Shown: positions 12,618 through 47,702 of the stretch, piece by piece
Position numbering within the stretch: the stretch's first letter is position 1
Layout of the letters: every line of letters begins with the position of its first letter
From: Gammaproteobacteria bacterium
Lineage (GTDB): Bacteria; Pseudomonadota; Gammaproteobacteria; Pseudomonadales; Azotimanducaceae
Direction of reading: 5' to 3'
Assembly (NCBI GenBank): GCA_028821515.1
Contig: JAPPGA010000055.1
Span: 62,001-126,000 of the forward strand
Length of the DNA: 64,000 nt
Position numbers and translations under genes: made by a program
Notes under the pieces: generated by a model
What the model saw: only the letters and a program-made list of their open reading frames with translations
What the model was told of the DNA's origin: nothing
The model's database searches: none

Positions 12618-13084
12618 TCCTGATAGCGCTTTGTCAACGTCAGCCGGTTGCAGTCGTTCTCGCGCCGGTACTCGACCTCATCCATCAGCGTCTTTACGAA
12701 AAAGACCCCCAGGCCGCCGATGCTACGCGCCTCGAGCGAAGCTTCAACGTCCGGCGTGGCAGCCTCCTGGAGCGGATCGAAAGGCTGGCCATCGTCGATG
12801 ATGTCGATAACGACATGCTCGCGGTTCGACTCCACCCTCACCTCGAATTCATGATCATCGTCATCATCGTAGGCGTAGTTGATGACGTTCATCACGACCT
12901 CTTCAAGCGCAAGCTTGATGTGATAGGACATCTGTTCGGGCCACTGCTCTGCCTGCCCGAACTCGTCCACTGCCCGGTCGAGGCGAGCCATCTCATCGGT
13001 ATTGTTGAGCAGACGAAACGTCGCTTTCGCGGTGCTGTCGTTCGCGTCGGGCCGATCTTGGCCAACCGGTTCGTCGGAACTCAC
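12614..13084 (-). CDS. RsbW-like ATP-binding protein (HATPase_c_2, anti-sigma factor type)
   Basis: ALEEVVMNVINYAYDDDDDHEFEVRVESN...VIDIIDDGQPFDPLQE...GGLGVFFVKTLMDEVEYRRENDCNRLTLTK. Confidence 0.88.
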   Translation of the reverse strand: MSSDEPVGQDRPDANDSTAKATFRLLNNTDEMARLDRAVDEFGQAEQWPEQMSYHIKLALEEVVMNVINYAYDDDDDHEFEVRVESNREHVVIDIIDDGQPFDPLQEAATPDVEASLEARSIGGLGVFFVKTLMDEVEYRRENDCNRLTLTKRYQE

Positions 13085-14244
13085 GATCCATCCTCACTAC
13101 GCATCAGCGTCACGCACGTAATGTCATCGAACTGCGGCGCATCGCCGGCAAACGCCTTGACCGCGTCGAACACGGCCTCATTCGCTTCCCGGACGGAACG
13201 CGGAGGGCCGCCGCTGAAGACTTCCTGCAACCGGTCCGGTCCGAATTCCTCGTCTTCGGCATCGATCGCCTCGGTCACGCCGTCCGTGAACAGCACCACC
13301 AGTTCGCCCCGCGCCAGCGTGACGCTGCTCTGCTCGAACTCATACTCGGGCATGACACCGAGCGCGACGCCGTCCGTCGTAGGCAGGTATTCAGAGGTGC
13401 CGTCGGCGCGCACTAGGAGGGGCGGATTGTGGCCACCGTTCGCGTACGTGAAATCGCCGGTCCGCGGGTTGAATACCGCATAGAACACCGTGACGAACAT
13501 GAGGGACTCGTTGTCTTCCTCCAGCAGGCCGTTGACCGACGTCAGAACGAGGTCGGGTTCCTCTGCGCCAATGGCCGAACCCTTCAACAGCGTGCGGCTC
13601 GACATCATGAACAAAGCCGCGGGAACGCCCTTGCCGGAGACATCCGCGATAGCGATCCCCACACGGCCCTCCTCAAGGCGCACGAAGTCGAAAAAGTCGC
13701 CCCCGACCTCGCGCGCCGGCTCCATGTTGGCGAAGGTCTCGTAACCCGCGCCCTTCGGAAAAGCCTTGGGCAATATCGACTGTTGCATCTGGCTCGCCAC
13801 GCCGAGTTCGTTCCTGATCGCAACCAGTTGGTCCCGGGACTCAAGGGCGTCGCGCCACACCGCCATATGCACCAGGGTCCGATCGATGGTGATCCGGAGG
13901 TCGTCGAAGTCGATGGGTTTCGTGATGAAGTCGAATGCGCCACGGTTCATGGCCGTGCGGATGTTCTTCATGTCGCCATACGCCGAGACGATCACGGAAC
14001 GGATGTTGGGGTCGACCTTCGAGACCTGGTCCAGCAGGGTTAGCCCATCCATCTGCGGCATGTTGATATCGGAAAGGACCATCTCGATATCGGGCTGCTC
14101 GTTCAGCCTTTCGAGGGCTTCGACGCCGTTGTGCGCGAACACGAACTCGTACTGTCCGGCGCGGACGTACCTGCGCATGCGTTGCCGCATGAGATGTTCG
14201 AGATCGGGTTCGTCGTCAACAACGAGGATCTTGTGTTCTGCCAT
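13081..14244 (-). CDS. Response regulator with SpoIIE/PP2C-type phosphatase output domain
   Basis: REC domain (DDEPDLEHLM...VLSDINMPQMDGLTLL...KPIDF) followed by PP2C motifs (ANMEPAREVGGDFFDFV, GIAIADVSGKGVPAALFM, GELVVLFTDGVTEA). Confidence 0.94.
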   Translation of the reverse strand: MAEHKILVVDDEPDLEHLMRQRMRRYVRAGQYEFVFAHNGVEALERLNEQPDIEMVLSDINMPQMDGLTLLDQVSKVDPNIRSVIVSAYGDMKNIRTAMNRGAFDFITKPIDFDDLRITIDRTLVHMAVWRDALESRDQLVAIRNELGVASQMQQSILPKAFPKGAGYETFANMEPAREVGGDFFDFVRLEEGRVGIAIADVSGKGVPAALFMMSSRTLLKGSAIGAEEPDLVLTSVNGLLEEDNESLMFVTVFYAVFNPRTGDFTYANGGHNPPLLVRADGTSEYLPTTDGVALGVMPEYEFEQSSVTLARGELVVLFTDGVTEAIDAEDEEFGPDRLQEVFSGGPPRSVREANEAVFDAVKAFAGDAPQFDDITCVTLMRSEDGS

Positions 14245-41208: not shown

Positions 41209-42678
41209 ATGAGAATGAGCGAGACGACTCCGGTCGTAGTGGGTGTTGCCCAGGTCGAGCAGTACGTCGACGACCCGGCGGCGGTAGAGGAGCCCCTGGA
41301 CCTGATGATCCGGGCAACACGAGCCGCGGCCCTTGATGCCGGCGCCCCCGCGCTCCTGACGGGAGCCAGCGCGGTGCGCGTGATTCGCGGCATGTGGCCT
41401 TACGAGAACCCTGCCCGGGCGGTCGCCGAAGCCATCGGCAATCCCGGTGCCGAGACCGGTGTTTCGTTCTGGGGCGGCACCGTCGTCCACCACCTGCTCC
41501 GCACGTCAGCACTCGAAATACAGTCCGGTACGCAACGGATCGTCATTCTTACCGGGGCCGAGTGCGGCGACACCCAGGCAAAGGCGCGCCGCGCCGGCGT
41601 GGAGCTCCAATGGCGGGAAGCGCCGGGGTCACCCGACCGGACCATCGGTACCGAGTTACGGATGCGCCACCGCGCCGAGGCATCGCGCGGGATCGTGAAC
41701 CCGGTGCAGATGTACCCCATCTTCGAGAACGCGATCCGGCACGCGCGGGGCGAAGGGCTCGACGCCCACCTCGAACGCATTTCCCGCCTGTGGGCTGGCT
41801 TCAGCCTTGTCGCGGCGGAAAACCCGCACGCCTGGATGCGCGAGCCGAAAGGCGCGGTCGAGATCCGCACTCCGGGCCCGGACAATCGACCCGTCTCCGT
41901 TCCCTATCCCAAGCTCATGAATTCCAATGAGAAAGTTGACCAGGGGGCGGCTTTGATCCTCACTTCCACCGAGGTGGCGCGACGCCTCGGCATTCCCCCC
42001 TCGAAGTGGATCTTCCCCTGGGTATCCACCGAAGCGCACGATACCCATGCCGTGTCGCATCGCGACAACCTTCATACCTCACCGGGACTGCGCATCGCCG
42101 GCAACCGCTGTATCGAGATGGCCGGCCTCGATGTCGACGACATCCAGCACATGGATATCTATAGCTGTTTCCCGTCCGCCGTCCAGGTGGCCACAGCGGA
42201 ACTCGGCATCGACGAGGAGCGGCCGCTGACGGTGACCGGCGGCATGGCGTTCGCAGGCGGCCCGCTGAACAACTACGCGATGCACGGCATCGCCCGCATG
42301 ACCGAGGTGCTGCGCGGCACCCCGGGCGAGGTCGGCCTCGTAACCGGCAATGGCGGATTCCTGACCAAGCACGCGTTCTGCCTGTTCGCCTCGGAGCGGC
42401 CTGCGCGGGCATTCCGCCACGAAACGCCGCAGGACCGGGTGGACGCCATGCCGACGCGCGAACTCGCGGAGTCGGCCGCAGGTCCGGTGGAGATCGAATC
42501 GTATACCGTCATGTTCGGGCGCGGTGGGCCCGATATCGGCCTGGCCGCCTGCAGGCTCCCCGATGGCCGAAGGGCCTGGGCAAACACCAGGGACGCCGAG
42601 GTACTCGGGGCAATGGTCACGGAAGAGTTCTGCGGCCGCCAGGCGCGCATCGACACGGGCGGCACCGTCATCTTCTGA
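41209..42678 (+). CDS. Thiolase / acetyl-CoA acetyltransferase family protein
   Basis: MRMSETTPVVVGVAQVEQYVDDP, ILTGAECGDTQAKARRAG, DIQHMDIYSCFPSAVQVATAELGI, VTGNGGFLTKHAFCLFASE. Confidence 0.88.
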   Translation: MRMSETTPVVVGVAQVEQYVDDPAAVEEPLDLMIRATRAAALDAGAPALLTGASAVRVIRGMWPYENPARAVAEAIGNPGAETGVSFWGGTVVHHLLRTSALEIQSGTQRIVILTGAECGDTQAKARRAGVELQWREAPGSPDRTIGTELRMRHRAEASRGIVNPVQMYPIFENAIRHARGEGLDAHLERISRLWAGFSLVAAENPHAWMREPKGAVEIRTPGPDNRPVSVPYPKLMNSNEKVDQGAALILTSTEVARRLGIPPSKWIFPWVSTEAHDTHAVSHRDNLHTSPGLRIAGNRCIEMAGLDVDDIQHMDIYSCFPSAVQVATAELGIDEERPLTVTGGMAFAGGPLNNYAMHGIARMTEVLRGTPGEVGLVTGNGGFLTKHAFCLFASERPARAFRHETPQDRVDAMPTRELAESAAGPVEIESYTVMFGRGGPDIGLAACRLPDGRRAWANTRDAEVLGAMVTEEFCGRQARIDTGGTVIF

Positions 42679-43097
42679 TGTCCGCACCGGCCAAAAGCAG
42701 CGCGGGGTTGCACCTGCGCCTGCTCGCCATGCTCTACGACGCCCTCGTCGTACTCGCCATGTGGGTCCTGACCCTCGTCGTCCTGGTGGCGGCGACGGGC
42801 GCCGCGGTCACGGGCTTCTGGGTCCAGGTTCTGCTCCTGGCGGAAGCGTACGCCTTCTTTCTTTTCTTCTGGGTGCGGCGTGGCCAGACCTTGGGCATGC
42901 TGGCCTGGCGCCTGCGCGTGTCGGACGGCAACGCACCCATCGGCCTGCGGCAGGCGCACCTCAGGATCGCCGGAGGAATCCTGAGCCTTGCCTGCCTCGG
43001 TCTCGGCCACATCTGGATGCTGTTCGACCGCCAGGGCCGGACATGGCCCGACATCCTATCGGCCAGCAGCATCGAACGCACCGGCGCGAAGCGGTAA
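42678..43097 (+). CDS. RDD family membrane protein
   Basis: LHLRLLAMLYDALVVLAMWVLTLVVLV...RGQTLGMLAWRLRVSDGNAPIGLRQAHLR. Start overlaps the thiolase stop (TGATG). Confidence 0.88.
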   Translation: MSAPAKSSAGLHLRLLAMLYDALVVLAMWVLTLVVLVAATGAAVTGFWVQVLLLAEAYAFFLFFWVRRGQTLGMLAWRLRVSDGNAPIGLRQAHLRIAGGILSLACLGLGHIWMLFDRQGRTWPDILSASSIERTGAKR

Positions 43098-43138
43098 CAT
43101 AGGCGTTCGAGACGCGGACAATCGGCAGGGGTCGGGAC

Positions 43139-44347
43139 ATGCGAATCGCGGTTTTGGGGGGAGACGGGTTCATCGGGTGGCCAGCGACGCTGCACCTCTC
43201 GAATCTCGGCTTCGAGGTGTTCATCGCCGACAACCTGAGCCGGCGGTGGATCGATACGGAACTGGGCGTGCAGTCGTTGACGCCGATGGACTCCATCCAG
43301 GAGCGCCGGCGCGTCTGGCGGGAAGTCACCGGGCACGACATCGGCTTCGAACGCATCGATGTCGCCACCGACTACTCGGGCCTGAAGAACTGGCTCGCCG
43401 AGGTGCGTCCCGACGCCATCGTGCACCTGGCGAAGCAGCGCGCGGCCCCCTATTCAATGAAGAGCGACCGGCACAAGAACTACACGGTCTCGAACAACGT
43501 CAACGCCACCCACCAGGTGCTTAACGCGCTCGTCGAACTCTCCCTCGACGCGCACCTGGTTCACATCGGCACCATGGGCGTGTACGGCTACGCGAACGTC
43601 GGCGCGACGATTCCCGAAGGCTATCTTCCCGTCGACATCCGTCTCGATGACGGCAGCACCGCTCCCCTGGAGATCCTCTATCCGGCCAATCCAGGCAGCA
43701 TCTACCACATGACCAAGTGCCTGGATCAGCTCATGTTCCAGTTCTACGCAAAGAACGACGGGCTGCGCATCACCGACCTGCACCAGGGGATCGTCTGGGG
43801 TACCCACACCGACCAGACCCGGCGCCACGTGCAACTCATCAACCGTTTCGACTATGACGGCGACTACGGGACCGTGCTCAACCGCTTCCTGATCCAGGCC
43901 GCCATTGGTTACCCGTTGACGGTGCACGGTACCGGCGGCCAGACGCGGGCGTTCATTCACATCCAGGACTGCGTGCGCTGCATAGAACTCGCGCTCAGGA
44001 ATCCGCCAGAGCGCGGCGCGCGTACACAGATTTTCAACCAGATGACCGAAACCCATCGTCTGCGCGACCTCGCTCGCATGATCCAGGACCTGACCGGCGC
44101 TGAAATCGCGTGGTTGCCGAACCCCAGGAACGAGGCGGCGGAAAACGAACTCGTCGTCAGCAACGAACACCTGCTCGATCTTGGCCTGCAACCGACAACG
44201 CTGAGAGAAGGGCTGCTGGAAGAGCTCGTCGATGTGGCGAAGAAGTACGCGCACCGGATCGACCGCAGCCGGATCCTCAGCACGGCCGCATGGACCAAGG
44301 AACGGGCCGAGCACCTCGCCAGCACCAATGGCGACACGATCGACTAG
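43139..44347 (+). CDS. NAD-dependent epimerase/dehydratase, UDP-sulfoquinovose synthase (SQD1/SqdB)-like
   Basis: MRIAVLGGDGFIGWPATLHLSNLGFEVFIADNLSRRW, KQRAAPYSM, HIGTMGVYG, PGSIYHMTKCLD, DLHQGIVWG, NRFDYDGDYGTVLNRFLIQAAIGYPLTVHGTGGQTRAFIHIQDCVRCIELAL follow the SQD1 pattern. Confidence 0.82.
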   Translation: MRIAVLGGDGFIGWPATLHLSNLGFEVFIADNLSRRWIDTELGVQSLTPMDSIQERRRVWREVTGHDIGFERIDVATDYSGLKNWLAEVRPDAIVHLAKQRAAPYSMKSDRHKNYTVSNNVNATHQVLNALVELSLDAHLVHIGTMGVYGYANVGATIPEGYLPVDIRLDDGSTAPLEILYPANPGSIYHMTKCLDQLMFQFYAKNDGLRITDLHQGIVWGTHTDQTRRHVQLINRFDYDGDYGTVLNRFLIQAAIGYPLTVHGTGGQTRAFIHIQDCVRCIELALRNPPERGARTQIFNQMTETHRLRDLARMIQDLTGAEIAWLPNPRNEAAENELVVSNEHLLDLGLQPTTLREGLLEELVDVAKKYAHRIDRSRILSTAAWTKERAEHLASTNGDTID

Positions 44348-44404
44348 TCCGGGAACCTCCCGATTCATCCGTAGCTGCGGATCCTTTGAGCCAGGACACC
44401 GGCC

Positions 44405-45196
44405 GTGTTCGCCTATGCGACCCTGGTGACCAACGCGGACTACGCGCTGGGTGCGACGGCCCTGGCGCGTTCGCTGAAGCGCGTCTCGGCCGCCTGCCCC
44501 CTGCTCGTGATGGCGAAGCCCGGAACGCCCGGACTCGACGAACTCGAAGCCGAAGGCTGCATCGTCCGGGAAACCGGGAAGCCGGCGATGTCAACGGCCT
44601 TCCAGGCGCGCCACAGCCGCGCGTCGCAGCATGCCAGGAGCCCGTTCACCAAGGGCGAAAAGCCCGCATTCCACGATCCCATCGACAACTTCATGAAGCT
44701 CGAACTCTGGCGCCTCACCGAGTACGAGCGGATCGTCTTCATCGACGCCGACGCCATCGCCGTGCGCAACATCGACAAGCTCTTCGGCTACCCCGAATTC
44801 TCGGCCGCTCCCAACCTCTACGAGTCCCTTGCGGACATGCACCGGATGAACTCCGGGGTTTTCGTCGCCCAGCCCAGTGAGAACACCTACGAGAGAATGC
44901 TCGAACGGCTGGACACCCCCGACGTGTTCTGGCGGCGCACCGATCAGACCTTCCTCGAGTCGTACTACCCCGACTGGCATGGACTGCCCTACACCTACAA
45001 CGTATTGCAGTACATCTTCTTCAATCAGCCTGATCTCTGGCATTGGCCGAGCGTCAAGGTGGTTCACTACCAGTACGAGAAGCCCTGGCAGAGAGATCAT
45101 CCCAAGCGCGACCTGCTCGCACCGCTGATCGACCTGTGGTACCGGGTGCTCGAGGGTCGGCCGATTCCGGAAGACATTCGCGCGCCCGAGCAGTGA
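44405..45196 (+). CDS. Glycogenin-like GT8 glycosyltransferase, possibly SqdD-like
   Basis: MFAYATLVTNADYALGATALARSLKRV, ERIVFIDADAIAVRNIDKLF, MNSGVFVAQPS, DQTFLESYY. GTG start. Confidence 0.82.
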   Translation: MFAYATLVTNADYALGATALARSLKRVSAACPLLVMAKPGTPGLDELEAEGCIVRETGKPAMSTAFQARHSRASQHARSPFTKGEKPAFHDPIDNFMKLELWRLTEYERIVFIDADAIAVRNIDKLFGYPEFSAAPNLYESLADMHRMNSGVFVAQPSENTYERMLERLDTPDVFWRRTDQTFLESYYPDWHGLPYTYNVLQYIFFNQPDLWHWPSVKVVHYQYEKPWQRDHPKRDLLAPLIDLWYRVLEGRPIPEDIRAPEQ

Positions 45197-46095
45197 TGAG
45201 AGTCGCGCTGACAGGCGCCACCGGGATTGTCGGCCGCTTCATCGCCGCCCGCCTCGCCGCCGAAGGCTGCGGCATCGTGGCGCTGGCCCGTCCCGAAAGC
45301 GACCGAACCGGTTTCGACTTCCCGGTAACCTGGATCGAGGGCAACCTGAACACCGAGGCGGCGCTGGACACGCTGGTGGAAGGCGCCGACGCGCTCGTGC
45401 ACTCCGCCTACGATCACTTGCCCGGTCACTATCGCGGCGGCGAGGGCAACGATGTCGAAGGTTATTGGCATACCAACCTGTTGGGCAGCCTGCGCCTGGT
45501 GCACGCCGCGAAGACCAACAACGTCGGCCGCGTCGTCGTCCTGTCCAGCCGGGCGGTCTTCGGTGGCCCGGTCAGCACGCGCGTCGGCGACAGGCATCCG
45601 ACGTCTCCCGACACGCACTACGGCGCGCTCAAGGTTGCCCTGGAAGCCCTGGCCACCGTATATCCCGGAACGACCTGCATCAGGCCCACGGGGGTCTACG
45701 GGATCACGCATCCAGTTGACCGCAGCAAGTGGTTCGACATGGCGCGGGCGGTGACATCCGGACGGCCTGTATCCGTGGCGCGTACTTCAACCGAAGTCCA
45801 CGGCGACGACATGGCGGCCGCGGTCTGGCTCCTGCTCAACGCGCCCGAAGAGGATGTCTCGGGCCGAGCCTTCAACTGTTCCGACCTCGTCCTCGGCACC
45901 CGCGAGATCGCCCAGCGGATGTACGCCGCGCAGGGCGTGGCGGCCGGATCCCTCCCGTTGCCGAGGGAGATGCCACCACCGGACTACATCATGCGCTGCG
46001 ACGGACTCCGGTCCCTCGGCTGGCGTCCCGGCGGGCGGCGGCGCCTCAACGCGACCATTCGAGCCCTGCTTGACGCCGCTCAACGCCTTGACTGA
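45196..46095 (+). CDS. NAD(P)-dependent epimerase/reductase, possibly SqdC-like
   Basis: MRVALTGATGIVGRFIAARLAAEG, VVLSSRAVFG, YGALKVALEAL. ATG overlaps the glycosyltransferase stop (TGATG). Confidence 0.8.
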   Translation: MRVALTGATGIVGRFIAARLAAEGCGIVALARPESDRTGFDFPVTWIEGNLNTEAALDTLVEGADALVHSAYDHLPGHYRGGEGNDVEGYWHTNLLGSLRLVHAAKTNNVGRVVVLSSRAVFGGPVSTRVGDRHPTSPDTHYGALKVALEALATVYPGTTCIRPTGVYGITHPVDRSKWFDMARAVTSGRPVSVARTSTEVHGDDMAAAVWLLLNAPEEDVSGRAFNCSDLVLGTREIAQRMYAAQGVAAGSLPLPREMPPPDYIMRCDGLRSLGWRPGGRRRLNATIRALLDAAQRLD

Positions 46096-46195: not shown

Positions 46196-46885
46196 CTACA
46201 GGAAGTTGTATCCGATATCCCGACAAGCCCCACGAATGGGATCGACAAGCAGCGCGTCCGTTAGCGCTCGATGCAAGGCTGGTGTCGAGGGGAACGGCGG
46301 AGATTGCGACACACGTTCGTAGAGGGTCGTCACCGGACGATTGGTGAGAGATGAGGGATAGTAGATGCCCTCAATGTTCCCATAGCAGGCGTAGAAGGCG
46401 CGCGACCAGTTCTGGGCGTATGTCTTTGGGCCACTGATGAGTTTCATCGATCCGCCAGCCTGAACACAGAACGTCCCGGACAGATCCAGCAACCGAACTT
46501 CTCGAGTTAGGGCGAAGGACACGAGCCATGGCTGGTGCCGTTCTCGGTCGACCATTCGACCGACCTGAAACACCTCGGCCAATGCAGTGGGGATATCGCT
46601 GGCGAGATAGATGATTCCGCGCGCTTGATCGAACGGTCGGCCCGACCTGTCCCGCTTGTGATGATCGAATCGCGCATCCGCCGGACCGAAGTGTCGGAGC
46701 GACTTCCATGTGCAGGCGTACGGGCCGCCTCGAAAGTAGATGCGGTGAAGGATCGTCCCTGCCGGAACAAGGAAGACAGGTGGCGTCAGTCGTTGGAGGA
46801 TTCGTCGATCGGGCGAGTGAGGCAGCTTCGCCCCGCGGCTCGGAGAAACGCTCATGTCGATACAAGCATACGGCGCGCGCCTCAC
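46196..46885 (-). CDS. RES family NAD+ phosphorylase-type toxin
   Basis: HRIYFRGGPYACTWKSLRHFGPADARFDHH...GIIYLASDIPTALAEVFQVGR...RLLDLSG...IEGIYYPSSLTNRPVTTLYER. Start could be 46855. Confidence 0.83.
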   Translation of the reverse strand: MRRAPYACIDMSVSPSRGAKLPHSPDRRILQRLTPPVFLVPAGTILHRIYFRGGPYACTWKSLRHFGPADARFDHHKRDRSGRPFDQARGIIYLASDIPTALAEVFQVGRMVDRERHQPWLVSFALTREVRLLDLSGTFCVQAGGSMKLISGPKTYAQNWSRAFYACYGNIEGIYYPSSLTNRPVTTLYERVSQSPPFPSTPALHRALTDALLVDPIRGACRDIGYNFL

Positions 46886-46937
46886 CTGGTATGCGGGCTA
46901 CTTTCGCAACCTCGTGCAGGTTATTGGCGCGAATGCG

Positions 46938-47702
46938 CTACAGATCAGCGGTAATCGGCAGCAGCCTGTCCAGTTCGTACCCGGCATTGAGCCAATCGAG
47001 CGGCGATACGATCCGGTCCGTGTCCCCCTCCAGGAAAAGGTCAGGATTGGGCATGTGATACCAGTTGTAGACAGCCACCGGATGCGCGCTTGGATCGAGG
47101 ACCCTGTTGACCCGCATGATGTTTGGCACGAGACCCATGTTGGTGAACTGAAAATCTGGAATGTGGCGCATTCCGTCCAGCAGGAAGCTGTAGAGCGACC
47201 GATTCACGACCATCTGTCGAATACGGCTCTGGGCCACGCCCAATCGTTCGCTTGCTCTCCTGCTCGAGAGGCTGCGAACAACAATTGCTGCGTACTTGAC
47301 CACTGTGTCGGCCATCGGGTCTGGACCGGTTGCCCGATCAAGGCGCAGGCCGCCTTCCAGCAATACGCGTTGTTCCCCTTTCGTCAACCCGCTTGTAGCA
47401 GGTTCATATGCGGTCGGGACCATGCTCCCCAGCACGGCTTTCAGAGCTTCGTTCAAGGCTTCCGGCGTATCTTCCAAACCTCGGCTCTTCATGAACTCCA
47501 TCGCCGACCGCTCTGCCATCCAACTCATCTCCTCACGCTCTGTAGCGGCGTTAACATGCGTTAGTATATCGCTGCAGGAACCACCTTCAAGCTCGGCGTT
47601 GATACGCATGCTCACCCATACACCGTTTCCGGTGGCACGTTGTTTTCCGACGAATCGCCTGGCGGAACTCGAGGCGGAAAAGTGACGAAATACCCTAACC
47701 AC
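46938..47702 (-). CDS. Putative antitoxin/DNA-binding partner of the RES toxin (Xre/MbcA-ParS-like C-terminus)
   Basis: Directly upstream of the RES gene on the same strand; HTH-like RRASERLGVAQSRIRQMV and ParS-like C-terminus IVSPLDWLNAGYELDRLLPI. True start may be downstream (e.g. MRINAELEG). Confidence 0.65.
   Translation of the reverse strand: MVRVFRHFSASSSARRFVGKQRATGNGVWVSMRINAELEGGSCSDILTHVNAATEREEMSWMAERSAMEFMKSRGLEDTPEALNEALKAVLGSMVPTAYEPATSGLTKGEQRVLLEGGLRLDRATGPDPMADTVVKYAAIVVRSLSSRRASERLGVAQSRIRQMVVNRSLYSFLLDGMRHIPDFQFTNMGLVPNIMRVNRVLDPSAHPVAVYNWYHMPNPDLFLEGDTDRIVSPLDWLNAGYELDRLLPITADL

Follow-up and report, generated by a model that had tools for sequence, protein, structure and literature searches.

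A predicted sqdBDC sulfolipid operon in a non-phototrophic gammaproteobacterium

The window, a 64,000-nucleotide stretch of DNA from a gammaproteobacterium of the Azotimanducaceae, contains a complete and intact copy of the sqdBDC system known from rhizobia and purple bacteria, here in a non-phototrophic bacterium of a group in which it is unusual. The three genes very probably form a functional sulfolipid operon, with SQDG, an anionic, phosphorus-free and sulfur-containing membrane lipid, as the predicted product. The genes present, their order, the conservation of their active sites and their joint inheritance are all those of sqdBDC, and the reactions and product of the window operon are predicted by analogy with characterised relatives. 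This extends a system best known from Alphaproteobacteria to a gammaproteobacterial family, in a genome without reaction-centre genes.

The operon and its enzymes

A preliminary description of this DNA listed three ORFs, the last two overlapping as TGATG, and these are present as described (Table 1). The overlap of the sqdD stop and the sqdC start spans positions 45194-45198, and all three frames are open and free of stops and frameshifts. The range given for the locus began at 42678. This is where the gene for an RDD-family membrane protein (42678-43097) starts, and that gene lies outside the sulfolipid system. The products fall into the Pfam families Epimerase (SqdB and SqdC) and Glyco_transf_8 (SqdD).

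Table 1 Coordinates of the operon, its neighbours and the hydrolase copies found near sqdC in other loci
Feature	Position	Strand	Remarks
sqdB (UDP-sulfoquinovose synthase, SqdB/SQD1-type)	43139-44347	+	ATG start, 402 aa
sqdD (GT8 glycosyltransferase, glycogenin-like)	44405-45196	+	GTG start, 263 aa
sqdC (extended SDR reductase/epimerase)	45196-46095	+	ATG start, 299 aa
Thiolase-like gene and RDD gene	41218-43097		Overlapping as TGATG, upstream of sqdB
RES-domain gene and adjacent ORF	46196-47702	-	Downstream of sqdC
HAD hydrolase copy	L131:4475-5209		
HAD hydrolase copy	L132:2593-3300		
HAD hydrolase copy	L200:9064-9813		
HAD hydrolase copy	L201:7235-7966		
HAD hydrolase copy	L194:11122-11841		
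HAD hydrolase copy	L063:10951-11679		

SqdB is an SQD1/SqdB-like enzyme, as first described. Its residues 2-387 match Arabidopsis SQD1 (PDB 1qrr, 1i24) with an E-value of 3e-92 and 42% identity, and the catalytic residues of the two proteins are alike. The Rossmann motif GxxGxxG appears as GGDGFIG and the YxxxK motif as YHMTK. In SQD1 numbering SqdB carries H96, R101, M107, N119, T145, M146, Y149, Y182, H183 and K186, among which the catalytic T145, Y182 and K186 are conserved, likewise H96, R101, M146 and H183. Loss of substrate-site residues had been named beforehand as grounds for rejecting the assignment, and the catalytic and substrate residues tested are present.

Agl3 of Sulfolobus acidocaldarius belongs to the same enzyme family and provides UDP-sulfoquinovose for glycoconjugates (PMC4388408). 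SqdB has equivalents of its His95, Arg101, Met145, Tyr148, Tyr182 and Lys186; exchange of His95, Arg101, Met145, Tyr182 or Lys186 for alanine leaves Agl3 inactive (PMC4388408), and the equivalents of these five are invariant in 89 close relatives of SqdB. The only Agl3 active-site position that differs is that of Glu147, which with Tyr148 forms the proposed acid and base pair of the dehydration step. The tyrosine is kept in SqdB and the glutamate is replaced by valine, within the motif GTMGVYG. Valine occupies this position in 108 of 108 proteobacterial-type SqdBs, that of S. meliloti among them, and judging from these sequences the dehydration step in enzymes of this type may use another acid. 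On the NCBIfam model for UDP-sulfoquinovose synthase (NF041015) the window SqdB scores 325 bits, below the curated cut-off of 575 bits. The SqdB of S. meliloti 4H41 likewise falls short at 336 bits, thus the cut-off misses the whole branch and is not diagnostic there.

SqdD is a GT8 enzyme by its match to Pfam PF01501 (46.8 bits) and also matches glycogenin with an E-value of 1e-19, in keeping with its earlier description as a glycogenin-like glycosyltransferase. The DxD motif, D114-A-D116, is near-invariant among 87 homologues, as are N149-S-G-V, D180-Q181, H221 and K226. The third product had been taken for a small reductase or epimerase fitting SqdC, which agrees with its place after sqdB and sqdD in the loci examined and with its identity as an extended SDR (Pfam PF01370, 103 bits). 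Both its NAD site (G7/G10/G13, G-x-x-G-x-x-G) and its S117, Y142 and K146 triad are near-invariant among 86 homologues. The solved structures nearest to SqdC are NDP-sugar epimerases, every match being weak, and SqdC is approximately 33-44% identical to the alphaproteobacterial SqdCs, a level that was counted against the sulfolipid operon.

By analogy with the characterised systems, SqdB with bound NAD+ would convert UDP-glucose and sulfite to UDP-sulfoquinovose. SqdD, as a predicted retaining and metal-dependent GT8 enzyme, would then transfer sulfoquinovose to a glycerol-type acceptor with the alpha configuration kept, consistent with the alpha-linked headgroup of SQDG. The substrate of SqdC would be a keto compound, which in the Rhodobacter model is sulfoquinovosyl-dihydroxyacetone, and SqdC would reduce it; this role is proposed because an R. 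sphaeroides sqdC mutant, in the 1997 work of Rossak et al., reportedly accumulates that compound. One or more acyltransferases encoded elsewhere would finish SQDG. The window genome has seven matches to the PlsC-type acyltransferase family (PF01553), which could act as SqdA, with none of them singled out for the role.

Synteny and phylogeny

Eighty loci in the genome collection carry an SqdB that is 74-79% identical to that of the window. In every such locus with a long enough contig sqdB is followed by a GT8 gene (53-76% identity) and then by an SDR gene (33-52%), the contigs of L043 and L074 stopping too early for the order to be checked. The B-D-C order is thus kept across dozens of genomes, and the arrangement is not due to chance. 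The operons of Sinorhizobium meliloti and other Rhizobiaceae resemble that of the window in genes, order and strand, and the S. meliloti 4H41 proteins, encoded in the same order, share 78% (SqdB), 59% (SqdD) and 40% (SqdC) identity with their window counterparts. An S. meliloti mutant that lacks the acidic sulfolipid has been reviewed (PMC3972451). Among the Rhodobacterales, Marinovum and Loktanella plasmids have the same B-D-C order, and the R. sphaeroides genes have been described under the operon name sqdBDC (PMC11346425). The locus was therefore rightly called sqdB-sqdD-sqdC-like, its synteny being that of S. meliloti and R. sphaeroides. R. sphaeroides is phototrophic, whereas a search of the window genome for a photosynthetic reaction-centre gene (Photo_RC) found none, and photosynthesis was on this ground rejected as the reason for the predicted SQDG of this host.

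The SqdB tree, which was built without Agl3, falls into two large groups, plant/SQD1 and proteobacterial, in agreement with earlier trees (PMC8227023, PMC6946739). The plant and cyanobacterial system is homologous at the level of SqdB and SQD1 but uses SQD2/SqdX as its glycosyltransferase, whereas the window has the GT8 enzyme SqdD beside sqdB. In a split matching that of PMC8227023, the window SqdB belongs to the other of the two main clades, away from the haloarchaeal branch as well as from that of plant SQD1. All SqdB copies accompanied by sqdD-sqdC form one clade (n=89, support 0.93) that includes S. meliloti and the Rhodobacterales. Phylogeny was a check set beforehand, and in this tree without Agl3 the window SqdB groups with the SqdBs of sqdBDC operons.

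UDP-sulfoquinovose could alternatively be destined for a surface polysaccharide or glycoprotein rather than a lipid, with SqdD and SqdC decorating the glycan. Many of the SqdB relatives with 55-65% identity have no sqdD-sqdC pair next to them, and one of these, in Pelagovum pacificum (L149:5001-6907), lies on a 41-kb plasmid beside a phosphoadenylyl-sulfate (PAPS) reductase gene and glycosyltransferase genes, which suggests sulfoquinovose in a glycan. For the window, however, a glycan role is improbable, as the SqdBs that lack sqdD-sqdC do not belong to the clade that holds the window SqdB, the window has the sqdD-sqdC pair, which accompanies the sqdB of sulfolipid operons in the sampled genomes, and no polysaccharide genes were found flanking the operon.

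Within the clade that bears sqdD-sqdC the SqdBs split into a gammaproteobacterial part, which includes the window, and an alphaproteobacterial part. The same split recurs in separate trees of SqdB, SqdD and SqdC and in the concatenate with a support of 0.99-1.0, and hence the three genes have travelled together. A recent transfer from rhizobia is not supported, the gammaproteobacterial copies being sister to the alphaproteobacterial copies in a tree whose alphaproteobacterial sample is mostly rhizobial. A search of the base composition for a foreign island at the operon found none.

A shift in the specificity of SqdD or SqdC, towards another acceptor or a keto or otherwise modified headgroup, would yield a lipid akin to SQDG but distinct from it. 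Within the system SqdC evolves fastest, with 40% identity to its S. meliloti counterpart against 78% for SqdB and a branch at the split of 0.71 against 0.17, and some gammaproteobacterial copies have a HAD hydrolase added. Yet SqdC is variable among the Alphaproteobacteria too while its catalytic residues are fixed, and the donor-site residues of SqdD are unchanged, making such a drift quite unlikely.

Distribution and an associated hydrolase family

Among the 369 gammaproteobacterial genomes sampled, 29 have SqdB-family genes (E <=1e-60), as do 6 of the 195 from the host order, and sqdD-sqdC is absent beside most of the gammaproteobacterial genes. Therefore sqdB alone is a poor marker of membrane sulfolipid, and surveys of SQDG producers that are based on sqdB would gain from also requiring sqdD and sqdC. 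SqdD, the mark of the sqdD-bearing operon, was found in a single one of the 369 class genomes, the window's own, and in nine of 399 phylum genomes (the window's own and two other families). Sulfolipid genes outside phototrophs and rhizobia had been expected to be notable. This holds for the sqdD-bearing operon; the SqdB family is known outside these groups, as in Noc_1509 of Nitrosococcus oceani (PMC4388408), and its wider occurrence in the class speaks against calling it unusual.

Two gammaproteobacterial MAGs (L047 and L063) carry the sqdBDC operon, and a Pseudomonadales locus, L055, has a thiolase-RDD-sqdBDC block like that of G003 in the host genus. In the host family SqdD is patchy (15 of 101 genomes, 5 of 37 genera), and it was found in neither G007 nor G008, both of them near-complete and from the host genus. 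Such patchiness is what might be seen if a transferred operon had lost its function and survived as a remnant, but the window has three open frames with intact active sites, and the operon is retained in five further genomes of the genus, with SqdB identities of 76-97%; a remnant is scarcely credible.

One family of HAD hydrolases lies beside sqdC or within about 4 kb of it in G929, G979, G995, G142, G085 and L063. Across these six gammaproteobacterial loci the copies are 34-52% identical to the one in L131, and in four of the six the gene is next to and convergent with sqdC. Among the 33 genomes searched, matches above 150 bits were otherwise confined to G927 and to one further copy in the L063 genome. 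The HAD protein may be a phosphatase that acts on a sulfolipid intermediate. It has been ruled out as a core part of the window operon, the family having no member in the window genome, nor in S. meliloti, at E <=1e-15. A tentative and rather doubtful proposal sees in the gammaproteobacterial sqdBDC an old and distinct branch of the Rhodobacter/rhizobium pathway, part of which uses a dedicated HAD phosphatase beside sqdC. If true, such an enzyme would imply that a phosphorylated intermediate, for example sulfoquinovosyl-glycerol phosphate, lies on the way from SqdD to the finished lipid.

Flanking genes and regulation

The thiolase-like and RDD genes upstream of sqdB are conserved as a pair in the family independently of sqdBDC. 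They were considered as operon partners and rejected; the pair stands without sqdBDC in G007, G008 and G048, and sqdBDC is located elsewhere in G085 and G142. Since the two units occur apart in relatives, neither the thiolase nor the RDD protein is part of the pathway. A clean empty site was sought in G007 and G008 but not obtained; the thiolase-RDD pair alone is shared with them, and the other neighbours differ.

S. meliloti sqdB belongs to the Pho regulon (PMC10315480). At -41 it has a weak match to a PHO box, with 11 of 14 positions agreeing; of 89 shuffled upstream regions, 2 reach this level as well. The window operon differs in that a search upstream of sqdB, RDD and thiolase found no PHO box, including at the place before 43139 where the preliminary description had advised looking for one. 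This was counted against the sulfolipid operon. PhoB control via a PHO box is a regulatory habit of some members and is not defining for the enzymes.

Downstream of sqdC, the RES-domain gene and its partner ORF resemble a toxin-antitoxin pair of the RES/Xre kind, and L127 has another related RES copy near its sqdBDC locus, at 12948-13559.
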